The notes beneath the pieces were generated by a model. The model saw only the letters and a list, made by a program, of their open reading frames with translations. It had not been told where the DNA came from and did not search any database. Positions 31,775 through 38,557 of a stretch of DNA of 64,000 nt are shown one piece after another. Both the position numbers and the translations under genes were made by a program. The DNA comes from Oscillospiraceae bacterium (GTDB lineage Bacteria; Bacillota; Clostridia; Oscillospirales; Ruminococcaceae): positions 1 through 64,000 of the forward strand of contig WRKM01000007.1 of assembly GCA_009778065.1 (NCBI GenBank). The letters are read 5' to 3'. Position 1 is the first letter of the stretch. Each line of letters opens with the position of its first letter.

Positions 31775-34700
31775 ATGAGAGAAGGGAAGAAAAGAAGGCT
31801 TATCGCTTTCATGACAGCTATAGCAAAGCTGTTCACAATTGCGGCATTAGCCATTCCGGCGCTTGCGAGCAGCGCGTCGGACATTCAAGTCGGCAACTGG
31901 ACTACATACGGTGTTGTTACCAGAGGTGATTTCACTGTTACCGGTGCTGATGCCGAGAGCGCGATAGCCGTTGGCGGAAACGCAAGCGGTGCTATCAGCT
32001 ATGTGGTAGACGCGAAAAACACTTTAAAAGGTACGGGGAACAATGTTGCCGCGCTTATCGCCGGTAGCAATAACATTAAACTGCAAAACAATGACGGCAG
32101 TTTGTTTGTGATTAACCCCGAAAATGAAAAGTGGTTAAAAGAAACAAATCTTACCCACGAGGACCAGTATAGGTTACAAAGCGCGGGCGGCGTAATCCGT
32201 GACTGGTTTATCGAAATCGACACACTGAACGCTCAGTATGCGTCGCAAGAGACGTCAGGTGAGATGGAAGCTAAGTGGGGTCAGTGGTTCTTAACGGGCG
32301 ACAATGACGATGTAAACTACTTTAACTTCACAGCAGATGAATGGAATCAGGCTCAAAGTATTTACAGCCAGATAAATATTAATGTTCCCGCAGATTCGAG
32401 CGTTGTTATTAATATTATCGGCGAAGATAAAGGTACCGGTACAATCACTTTGGGTCAGGGTACTCTGTTCTTTAACGGCATACACGCGAAAGACGCCGGA
32501 AAAGTGCAAAACATAGTACACAACGTAATAAAAGTCAGCAAGGTTATTTTACCCAGTTCTGTTTACGGCTCGGTTTTAGCTCCCGATGCTGATGTTATCG
32601 GAAATGGCGGACATCTCTGGGGTCAGTTAATCGCTAACAGCTTCAACGGCACAACAGAATTCGGTGAAGAGAAGTTCAGATTCCCGTCGACTCCTCCTAC
32701 TCCTCCGGATGTTCCCGAATATCGTTTTTCCAAAACCTCCTTTGGTGCTACAGGTAGCTTTAAATTTGAATACGAAATCAGAAATGGTAATAACAGCTCT
32801 GTAATTAAAAAAGGTACTATTGAGCTGACTACCGAAGAAGAAGGCGTGGCTGTACATTTCGACCTTAAAGAAATAACAAAAGGTTTATCTCAAGCTTTAT
32901 ACTATATTACTATTAGTGAAGTAGACGGCGGTGTAGATGGCTGGACATACGACCCCACTACATACGAGATATGGTTCAACAACGGCGTCTGGGATGGCTT
33001 TTACACGAACCAAGGGTATTACACCCACTGGCTTCACATGCTCAGCCACAACGAAAGACTTGCGTTGAAGAACAAGGTAGACCGCCCCGAATTTAATAAC
33101 TATTTTGAAACTCCTGCGTATGGAAATATTGTCCTGTCTAAGATGGTAGCAGGAGAAAACGCACCTTCGGGTATGGCGTTTGAGTTTGAAGTGACTATTG
33201 ACGGAAAAGTTCTTGAGCCGGTTTATGTCATAGCAGGCGGCGAAGATTGGACGTCTGATGATTACCTCGTAGGCACGCCATACAGCGTTAAAGAAGTTAA
33301 TATACCCGACGGCTTTGTTCAGGTGACAGGGGATATTGAAGAAGGAACAATGACAATAGCGGAAGGTGTAAACGCTGTTAATGTCGTAAACAAATACAAC
33401 CCGCCGCCTCCTCCTCTTCGCTTCGGAAAAATAACCTATGGCGGTGAAGGAACATTCTACTTCGAGTATGAAGTATATTCCTTCTCAAGATTCATTTTAG
33501 CTGAAGGCACAGTTTCTATAACCACCGTTGAAGAAGGCGTAGCGGTTTTCGTAGACCTCGGTGAAATACTTCTCATGAACCACGGCATAGACGTTAATAA
33601 GAGTAGTGCCAACTATTATATTGTCCTCAAAGAAGTAGACAGCGGCGAACCCGGTTGGATTTACGATGAAAACGTATTTGAACTCTGGATTGTTAACGGA
33701 ACTTTTGATGGCTATTATGTAAATGAGAGTTACTGGGATTATGCCGGCATGTGGTGGATAAACGGCGACAAGAGGAAAGAAGAAGACGCGATTATATTTA
33801 TAAATAAGAGAGACCCCGATGAGCCTCCGGAAGGCGATGCAGACGCAGATGATGATGCCGATGCCGATGCAGACGCTGATGCCGATGCTGACGCAGATGC
33901 CGATGCAGACGCTGACGCAGACGCCGATGCAGACGCTGACGCTGACGCCGATGCTGACGCTGACGCAGATGCAGATGCTGACGCAGATGCAGACGCAGAC
34001 GCAGACGCAGACGCAGACGCTGATACAGATGCCGACGCAGACGCCGATGCCGATGCCGATGCAGACGCTGACGCAGATACAGATACCGATGCTGATGCTG
34101 ATGCAGATGCCGATGCTGATGCCGATGCAGACGCCGATGCCGATGCAGACGCTGACGCAGATACCGATGCTGATGCTGATGCTGATGCAGATGCCGATGC
34201 TGATGCCGATGCAGACGCTGACGCCGATGCAGACGCTGATACCGATACAGACGCTGATGCTGATACCGATACAGACGCAGATGCTGATGCCGACGCTGAT
34301 GCTGACGCAGACGCTGATGCCGACGCTGATGCAGACGCTGACGCAGATGCCGATGCCGACGCCGATACCGATGCCGATGCCGATACTGACGCCGATGCTG
34401 ATGCAGACGCCGATGCAGATGCTGACGCCGATGCTGATGCCGATGCAGACGCAGACGCCGATGCAGACGCAGACGCAGACGCCGATGCTGACGCCGATGC
34501 TGATGCTGACGCAGACGCCGATACAGATACCGATGCCGATGCAGACGCAGATGCAGATGCAGATGCTGACGCCGATGCAGACGCAGATGCTGATGCTGAC
34601 GCAGACGCCGATGCAGACGCTGACGCCGATGCAGACGCAGATGCTGATGCTGACGCAGACGCTGATGCTGACGCTGATACAGATACCGATGCTGATGCTG

Positions 34701-37700: not shown

Positions 37701-38557
37701 ACGCCGATGCAGACGCTGACGCAGATGCTGACGCTGACGCCGATGCAGACGCCGACGCCGATGCAGACGCAGACGCAGACGCAGACGCTGACGCTGATAC
37801 CGATGCCGATGCTGATGCTGACGCCGACGCCGATGCAGACGCTGATGCCGATGCTGACGCAGACGCCGATGCTGACGCAGACGCCGATGCCGATGCTGAC
37901 GCGGATGCAGATGCCGACGCAGACGCCGATGCAGACGCTGACGCTGATGCCGACGCAGACGCCGATGCTGATGCAGACGCTGACGCTGACGCAGATGCCG
38001 ATGCTGACGCCGATGCCGATGCTGACGCGGATGCAGATGCCGACGCAGATGCCGACGCAGATGCAGATGCAGATGCTGATGCAGATGCTGACGCCGATGC
38101 CGATGCTGATGCAGACGCAGATGCCGATGCTGACGCTGATGCCGATGCAGACGCAGATGCTGATGCAGATGCTGACGCCGATGCCGATGCCGATGCTGAT
38201 GCAGACGCAGATGCCGATGCTGACGCCGACGCTGACGCCGATGCAGACGCCGATGCCGATGCAGACGCTGATACCGATGCTGACGCAGACGCAGACGCTG
38301 ATACAGATACCGATACGGATTACTACGATATAGACGATGCTCCCGTACCCTTAGATTTCGAGATATTCACCAATGACGACCTCGAAATTGATGATGCTCC
38401 GGTTCCCAGAGGTTCACTTGAGTTCCCGGATAGCAAAAACCCCGCAACAGGAGTATCAGCAGGATTCGCAGGAATGATGGCAGCGAGTGCGATAATGGCG
38501 GGTGCAGGTGCGCTTGCTAAGAAAAAGAGAGATGAAGAAAGCGAAGAAAACAACTAA
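31775..38557 (+). CDS. Giant sortase-anchored surface protein with Asp-Ala repeat stalk
   Basis: 2260 residues. Signal peptide (about 1-33), then a choice-of-anchor-A-like beta domain (about 35-300, starting with [19 protein letters not shown]). Next come two pilin-type isopeptide/SpaA-like modules of about 125 residues (starting [17 protein letters not shown] and [17 protein letters not shown]) around a shorter prealbumin-like module. Residues 688-2182 are an uninterrupted alternation of Asp with Ala, occasionally Thr. The C-terminus has NPATG (2222-2226), a hydrophobic helix and a KKKR tail: a sortase sorting signal. The Asp stalk should be highly charged and extended, comparable in role to the Ser-Asp repeats of staphylococcal Sdr proteins, placing the N-terminal domains far from the wall. 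No sortase gene is in the window. Confidence 0.9.
33836..38320 (+). repeat. 4.5-kb hexanucleotide-period repeat encoding (Asp-Ala/Thr)n
   Basis: 4485 bases in which every second codon is GAT/GAC and the others are GCA, GCC, GCT, rarely GCG, or ACx. Third positions vary almost freely while the protein pattern is kept. Thr is clustered as Asp-Thr-Asp-Thr, nearly always written GATACAGATACCGA or a one-base variant. Because of the six-base period the region has no stops in several other frames, giving long spurious ORFs on both strands. Confidence 0.97.

Follow-up and report, generated by a model that had tools for sequence, protein, structure and literature searches.

A long Asp-Ala/Asp-Thr stalk in an adhesin of the sortase-anchored type and its convergent GtfC-like/SdgB-like partner gene in an Oscillospiraceae bacterium

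The stalk protein and its convergent neighbor

The window analyzed here, 64,000 nucleotides of contig WRKM01000007.1 from an Oscillospiraceae bacterium (assembly GCA_009778065.1), carries the gene for a stalk adhesin of the sortase-anchored type, in which the stalk has Asp at every second residue. A convergent gene, separated by 85 bp, encodes a fusion of a GtfC-like domain, denoted below as the toroid, and an SdgB/GtfD-like glycosyltransferase domain (Table 1). Asp-Ala stalks themselves are already in print, and the new part is this neighboring fusion. The source genome (G000) is a 2.55-Mb draft in 43 contigs with 98.8% completeness.

The sequence-only reading had described a 1,495-residue Asp-Ala/Asp-Thr stalk, and the residue count bears this out: its codons encode 749 Asp, 675 Ala, and 71 Thr. 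The first six residues read D-A-D-A-D-D, in which one X position of the Asp-X array is itself Asp (codon 33851-33853), and the strict D-[A/T] run (33854-38320) comprises 1,489 residues with 745 Asp, 673 Ala, and 71 Thr. Ser is absent from all 744 X residues of this run, which is therefore not a Ser-Asp repeat of the Sdr kind. The length alone rules out a chance origin. Exact direct repeats within the array reach 86 bp at most, and every 100-mer in it is unique, so that short reads could in principle resolve the stalk. In synonymous shuffles of the stalk protein, the longest repeat was 42 bp on average and 53 bp at most (40 shuffles), indicating that some recent duplication is visible in the array. 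The length is credible because no 100-bp exact repeat exists and because a relative assembled as a single contig (G014) has an even longer Asp-X run; assembly collapse or inflation is unlikely.

Synonymous codons are strongly mixed across the array. The third base is a purine in none of the 745 Asp codons and in 223 of the 673 Ala codons, which fits selection for Asp over Glu. GCG, the commonest Ala codon in the other genes of the window (393 of 1,259), accounts for four of the 673 Ala codons in the array. Such scarcity points to a shuffling of a few founder hexamers and makes the window by itself a weaker basis for inferring purifying selection. A general translational constraint was rejected as the cause, as ACG and GCG are near or above expectation in the stalks of G014 and G569, and the scarcity of GCG is attributed to array history. 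The G014 stalk, which uses all four Thr codons while its Asp series is unbroken, is a better case for purifying selection on Asp. The Thr residues of the window stalk are grouped, with 55 of the 71 lying in 27 D-T-D-T clusters and 28 adjacent Thr pairs versus 6.6 in shuffles (maximum 18 in 2,000). These clusters consist mostly of a single DNA motif and were thus probably copied. On the strand opposite the stalk, an open frame of 1,231 aa (33739-37434, minus strand) is read as a by-product of the stop-free repeat DNA.

The remaining regions of the protein agree with the sortase-anchored type and with the parallel to staphylococcal Sdr adhesins that had been proposed earlier. A signal-peptide-like start precedes an adhesive head of the choice-of-anchor A type, which scores 110.9 bits on PF20597 (cut-off 23.8) and 104.5 bits on TIGR04215 (cut-off 29). 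These models matched in place of an MSCRAMM ligand-binding A region, which the Pfam/NCBIfam search of the stalk protein did not find. The protein ends in DSKNPATG, a hydrophobic stretch, and KKKR, and three sortase-family matches are clustered elsewhere in the same genome.

The glycosyltransferase domain of the fusion shows near-full-length homology to the SdgB model NF047881 (251 bits, E 2e-74, model positions 1-492 of 496), and its adjacency lends indirect support to the earlier suggestion that the stalk Thr residues may carry glycans. It also matches the PDB chains 7ec1 and 7ec3 (E about 1e-63), which we take to be the SdgB structures of PMC8561734; the code 7ec1 is absent from the portion of that text searched. 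The E-x7-E of SdgB is kept in the domain. Within the fusion gene (38643-41981), the only part of the genome searched for the GtfA and Asp1 equivalogs that go with accessory Sec, neither was found (GtfA model TIGR02918, 96.8 versus 574.6 bits; Asp1, 51.4 versus 136.1).

Over the first 590 residues of the fusion, no model of Pfam or NCBIfam scores above its cut-off. The S. haemolyticus protein encoded directly downstream of pls is a 538-residue toroid, with 159 of 477 residues identical to the window toroid. GtfC, as described in passages of PMC5230774, likewise has 538 residues, lies directly downstream of pls, and is not predicted by CAZy to be a glycosyltransferase. Since place and length coincide, the toroid very probably belongs to the GtfC family, an assignment made by sequence through the S. 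haemolyticus protein rather than SACOL0051 itself. The same passages report that GtfC and GtfD together bring about full glycosylation of Pls, with N-acetylhexosamine on Ser; GtfD alone gave weak glycosylation with the strain COL genes, while both were needed with the strain 1061 genes. A two-sequence structure prediction of the toroid reached a mean predicted local distance difference test (pLDDT) score of 45.5, with the core partly at 60-85. Foldseek placed GH76 mannanases and sugar 2-epimerases as its best matches, with template modeling scores by target of at most 0.56 among the 50 matches listed. Up to four of nine toroid members weakly match GH88, LanC-like, or AGE models, and a PDB profile search returned a single chance-level match (E 0.73). 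Judging from the Foldseek and weak model matches, the domain is probably an (alpha/alpha) toroid.

Table 1. Features of the stalk gene and the adjacent toroid genes in the window
Feature	Positions	Strand	Basis
Stalk adhesin of sortase-anchored type, 2,260 aa	31775..38557	+	open reading frame translation
Likely signal peptide, ~residues 1-33	31775..31873	+	by eye from translation
Choice-of-anchor-A / pAdhesive_15 (PF20597) head, residues 43-296	31901..32662	+	PF20597, TIGR04215
Unnamed repeated domain, first copy, ~residues 314-430	32714..33064	+	by eye from translation
DUF5979 domain, residues 453-541	33131..33397	+	29.9 bits (cut-off 25)
Unnamed repeated domain, second copy, ~residues 547-685	33413..33829	+	by eye
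Asp-Ala/Asp-Thr stalk, 1,495 residues (688-2182 of 2,260 aa)	33836..38320	+	translation, residue count
C-terminal tail with NPATG (38438-38452), hydrophobic stretch, KKKR	38321..38557	+	translation
Convergent partner gene, 1,112 aa, GtfC-like toroid + SdgB-like glycosyltransferase	38643..41981	-	domain homology
SdgB/GtfD-like glycosyltransferase domain, residues 609-1108	38658..40157	-	NF047881, PDB 7ec1/7ec3
GtfC-like domain, probably (alpha/alpha) toroid, residues 1-589	40215..41981	-	nine-row alignment; weak GH76 / sugar 2-epimerase fold match
Second toroid gene, 698 aa, toroid 68% identical to first	42008..44104	-	alignment; without glycosyltransferase match

Asp-X stalks and toroid genes in other genomes

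Homologs of the head occur in 17 of 60 genomes, comprising 17 of the 36 from the genus (source genome included) and none of the 24 others from the order. Twelve of these proteins have Asp-X stalks with differing X, and five have unrelated repeats. X is Ala/Thr in the window and in G023 (some Ser too), mostly Thr in nine proteins, and Ser/Ala in G022. The longest Asp-X run in the genus, 1,566 residues with 760 Thr, belongs to the homologous protein of G014 (single contig, 2.69 Mb), and the shortest stalk, of 66 residues, to G013, where the head is divided between two frames. In five of the 12 Asp-X homologs, the contig ends inside the stalk. By eye, the Asp-Thr stalk genes at six loci (L019, L021, L022, L023, L024, and L070) lie head to head with a conserved gene of 734-748 aa, and a response-regulator/kinase-like pair is located near this arrangement in G009 and G030. 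Scanning named genomes yielded 11 loci, each from a metagenome-assembled genome (Oscillospiraceae, Ruminiclostridium, Clostridia, Ruminococcaceae, and Eubacterium), one of them from water deer rectum; an animal gut is the probable source of the window bacterium.

Of 295 genomes from the order, a six-row Asp-X profile (E<=1e-12) matched five, each a member of this genus, and it matched eight of 398 in a sample of the phylum. One of the eight, G616, was dropped from the counts, as its match is antisense to a serine-rich-repeat gene in an accessory-Sec-like locus. Besides the source genome, six of 397 phylum genomes (G387, G532, G559, G569, G630, and G707) thus have stalks, all mainly Asp-Ala, with Ser also present in G387 (23 Ser to 40 Ala) and in G707 (8 Ser). 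The sequence-only reading had proposed a search for long (DA)n next to LPxTG-like signals, and such pairs exist: four of the six carry LPxT[G/S] near the end (LPNTG, LPKTG, LPKTS, or LPQTG), G569 ends in LPKLN, a hydrophobic stretch, and KKKK, and the G532 stalk leaves its contig. Asp-Ala stalks are uncommon, yet not unique. The accompanying claim that no family with this repeat had been described does not stand, in view of these genomes and of two proteins in print: Lmo1799 of Listeria, with 226 Ala-Asp repeats according to a passage of PMC8687577, and SdrI of S. saprophyticus, for which a passage of PMC4850167 mentions alanine-aspartate repeats. Among the matches listed for an Asp-Ala query against viral contigs, nine loci contained no Asp-X run of at least 24 residues. 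Plasmid records searched by tblastn with an Asp-Ala stretch and with the head gave no match, and no title among the literature matches listed for 'DADADADA' concerned such proteins.

Toroid genes and Asp-X stalks recur together in many bacteria. In all six stalk genomes of the phylum sample, a toroid gene adjoins the stalk at gaps of 16-371 bp. In five it follows the stalk on the same strand, and in G532 it lies upstream; the toroid stands alone in five and is fused to an SdgB-like domain in G387. A nine-row toroid profile, six rows of which derive from these same six genomes, was run on the same 398 genomes and matched 12, namely the source genome, the six stalk genomes, and five others. With the source genome excluded, the toroid is thus present in 6/6 stalk genomes versus 5/391 others (p about 9e-11). 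Two of the five others have shorter adjacent stalks (G484, 44 residues; G611, at least 58). The remaining matches are G514 without an adjacent stalk, a contig-edge fragment in G557, and a weak match beside an Asp-Gly tract in G672. At this last locus (L174 7026-8750), the Asp-Gly tract is 52 residues long, and its protein is encoded ~60 bp away from the distant toroid relative (52 bits).

A tblastn search of plasmids with the G707 toroid yielded 54 records, of which 14 were inspected; these were hand-picked and are partly near-duplicates. In all 10 Gram-positive records, an Asp-X stalk and a sorting signal are encoded directly upstream of the toroid; the stalk reaches 1,204 residues in S. simulans. 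In two records from Listeria, the toroid gene comes directly after that of a (DA)n protein, and no glycosyltransferase fusion was seen in the Listeria loci. In the S. epidermidis sdrF locus, the adhesin is followed by the toroid and then by an opposite-strand glycosyltransferase (145 of 511 residues identical to the window domain). An Asp-X stalk lies near the toroid in three of the four Proteobacterial records: an Asp-Ala run of 343 residues at ~3.2 kb in Agrobacterium, one of 319 residues at ~0.2 kb in Sulfitobacter, and, in Klebsiella (L205 3-5873), an Asp-Ser reading frame whose runs reach 1,424 residues, ~8 kb from a toroid-GT4 fusion. No Asp-X tract was found within the part fetched of the A. 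baumannii record. Pieces annotated as 'clumping factor' lie beside the Klebsiella Asp-Ser frame, and type I secretion genes are present there.

Other partners of the toroid are also seen. A Mur ligase is fused to it in Agrobacterium (by Pfam) and Sulfitobacter (by annotation) and is encoded next door in S. haemolyticus, S. simulans, S. aureus pWBG759, S. lugdunensis (in pieces), and three freshly sampled genomes. The term 'Mur ligase' was not met among the literature matches listed. Further fusions are to GT4 in Klebsiella and to radical SAM in G003; in the latter (L176 4921-8340), the toroid is joined to 4Fe-4S and radical SAM domains, with no stalk nearby. By eye, the tail of the second toroid protein of the window resembles the linker of this G003 fusion. 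Viral contigs contained no toroid. A phage collection held eight relatives (H70-H77) of 35-40% identity, mostly unannotated, in records labeled as Listeria, Acinetobacter, or unspecified phages.

The toroid-stalk linkage is not universal. Mapping the label 'stalk within 1 kb' onto a tree of 48 toroids requires seven changes (at least six being forced by starred branches) versus a mean of 16.3 for shuffled labels, with none of 500 shuffles as low, which indicates that the link is clustered yet recurrent. The window copies group with mostly unlinked Clostridial toroids. In G009 and G022, the stalk lies ~9 kb from the toroid on the same contig. Both new toroid members in a fresh class sample (82 genomes) are unlinked to a stalk. 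In a fresh family sample (54 genomes), three of six new toroids are stalk-linked, each followed by a Mur ligase, and the other three lie beside a gene that we take to be YebC-like.

The arrangement of the window is found in one relative of the genus. In G023, a contig begins with the end of a stalk, and 39 bp beyond it lies the convergent gene of a 1,126-residue fusion with 53% identity to the window fusion; another contig ends in a stalk, the two contigs not being joined. At E<=1e-20, the SdgB model matches three of 70 genus genomes (the source genome, G023, and G029 with a partial match). In the phylum, the model was run on 41 genomes, comprising the seven Asp-X-profile genomes other than the source and 34 without a stalk, and at E<=1e-30 it matched two. 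In one, G387 of another family, a toroid/SdgB-like fusion lies beside a DS/DA stalk (32% identity over 1,096 columns). The other is the false stalk genome G616, whose match (119.6 bits) sits in its accessory-Sec-like serine-rich-repeat locus.

Likely role of the fusion and its alternatives

The closest described counterpart is Pls with GtfC and GtfD (S. aureus, SCCmec type I), which combines a sortase-anchored adhesin bearing an Asp-X stalk with adjacent enzymes of both types. Passages of PMC5230774 describe an SD stalk with reported SDAD peptides, GtfD beside GtfC, and a pls gene order to which that of the sdrF locus in S. epidermidis is similar. In contrast to Pls, the window unites both enzyme types in one polypeptide, and its protein has an Ala/Thr stalk run without Ser, a choice-of-anchor A head, and NPATG. 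The Sdr/ClfA adhesins with SdgA and SdgB, as presented in passages of PMC8561734, share Asp at every second residue, a sortase-type anchor, and an adjacent SdgB-type glycosyltransferase. They differ in that the window stalk run is devoid of Ser, no MSCRAMM A region was found, and the partner enzyme stays under the SdgB equivalog cut-off. Lmo1799 and SdrI are also surface proteins with an Ala-Asp dipeptide stalk, as far as the passages cited above describe them, but the window has ~747 repeats versus the 226 reported for Lmo1799, and the heads are other ones. Large Proteobacterial adhesins of the BapA/LapF type resemble the window in that their Asp-Ala runs are found close to a toroid gene, here one for a fusion with a Mur ligase (Agrobacterium and Sulfitobacter), whereas no sortase-type end was found in them, and type I secretion genes lie in between in Agrobacterium.

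We consider it likely that the window encodes a stalk adhesin of the sortase-anchored type whose stalk Thr residues are glycosylated by the neighboring fusion. An ice-binding-like (choice-of-anchor-A) head and three small domains would be held off the wall by an unstructured polyanion of ~1,500 residues, spanning ~0.5 micrometre if fully extended at ~0.34 nm per residue. The stalk would be of the known Asp-X dipeptide kind represented by Sdr, Pls, SdrI, and Lmo1799, with X being Ala, or Thr at 71 places. The fusion most likely acts in the cytoplasm ahead of secretion, where its toroid would engage the Asp-X chain and its glycosyltransferase domain would add N-acetylhexosamine to Thr.

Several observations weigh against this reading. 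Nine in ten of the stalk X residues are Ala, which is not O-glycosylatable. The 251 bits on NF047881 compare with an equivalog cut-off of 800, so that the domain does not qualify as an SdgB equivalog, and the Arg of the SdgB 'SVAR' is not kept, for which reason the donor or activity may differ. At E<=1e-20, NF047881 also matches three of 14 control genomes under the cut-off, indicating that the model reaches general GT4 enzymes. The (DT)n-stalk genomes of the genus gave no SdgB-like match at this threshold, and Thr stalks can thus do without an SdgB-like enzyme. A toroid relative is present in 43 of 70 genus genomes, and none of the 15 loci inspected lies beside a stalk. The NPATG end scores 19.1 bits on NF033846 (Rumino_NPXTG), below the cut-off of 23.5. 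Furthermore, a simple rule by which Thr or Ser in the stalk means a glycosyltransferase is contradicted by the (DT)n genomes and by G611, which has a Ser stalk and a toroid alone within the contig part seen.

In the phylum sample, near-pure (DA)n stalks keep the toroid, although they contain hardly any hydroxyl residue and their genomes gave no SdgB-like match. It is therefore probable that the toroid performs a task of its own on the Asp-X chain and does more than aid Ser/Thr glycosylation. An alternative that we regard as possible, if somewhat doubtful, goes further: the toroid would be the main stalk enzyme, acting on the Asp-Ala chain by itself or jointly with a Mur-type ligase, by which Asp carboxylates would be modified. 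It is the constant partner of the stalks, the near-pure (DA)n ones included, and several loci have a Mur ligase next to the toroid or fused to it. However, no Mur ligase match was found among the window proteins searched, and the weak fold match, made with a model of low mean pLDDT, points to sugar-active enzymes.

As a tentative wider proposal, which we do not favor but hold conceivable, the GtfC-type toroid could be the core of a cross-phylum system that finishes Asp-X stalks, both sortase-anchored in Bacillota and of the Bap type in Proteobacteria. The toroid would process or chaperone the chain itself, near-pure (Asp-Ala)n with scarcely any Ser/Thr included, and its partners would be exchangeable: either an SdgB-type glycosyltransferase, as in some Ser/Thr-stalk loci, or a Mur-type ligase. 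The window would represent the toroid-glycosyltransferase fusion form. By analogy, the Mur-type ligase could couple an amine to the Asp side chains. Cyanophycin synthetase performs a somewhat comparable coupling of an amine to Asp side chains.

It is unlikely that the stalk is an unmodified extended polyelectrolyte, serving as a spacer or a cation-binding brush, and that the fusion serves another substrate. This reading would account for the dominance of Ala at X and for those near-pure (DA)n and (DT)n stalks whose genomes gave no SdgB-like match, and 745 Asp codons that never become Glu, with a purine third base in 223 of 673 Ala codons, are what selection for charge spacing predicts. The adjoining position of toroid and stalk and their co-occurrence above chance, which extends to the near-pure (DA)n stalks, argue against it. 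Most improbable is a repeat length produced by assembly artefact or neutral microsatellite expansion. The 43-contig draft, the contigs ending inside five of 12 genus stalks, and the scarcity of GCG would suit it, but an artefact is opposed by the lack of any 100-bp exact repeat and by the single-contig run of 1,566 residues, and neutral expansion with point mutation would not preserve all 745 Asp while the Ala codons vary.

GtfC is called a glycosyltransferase on the basis of sequence labels and of the loss of full Pls glycosylation in its absence, according to passages of PMC5230774. The link to near-pure (Asp-Ala)n stalks, the weak fold match to (alpha/alpha)-toroid sugar enzymes, and the fusions to glycosyltransferase, Mur ligase, and radical SAM domains make the job of the GtfC family directly testable. 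If the toroid indeed modifies or handles Asp-X chains, a maturation step would be common to adhesins across phyla. The genus itself, in which one head is combined with stalks of varied X (Ala, Thr, and Ser) or with unrelated repeats, provides a natural series on the requirements of the stalk.

Other genes of the window

Beside the stalk locus, genes for a type II secretion/type IV pilus-like ATPase (T2SSE) and T2SSF occupy 44104-47936 (minus strand), and by eye a similar-looking T2SSE/T2SSF series follows the stalk in G023. A 3,528-residue secreted-looking protein is encoded at 15758-26344 (plus strand), with a FecR-like start (by eye), a Thr/Pro-rich linker, and Big_2, GLUG, and M26-N-like matches. 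Another surface-type protein of 1,247 residues (55064-58807, minus strand) contains List_Bact_rpt and Big_2 repeats and has a weak dockerin-like end under cut-off.

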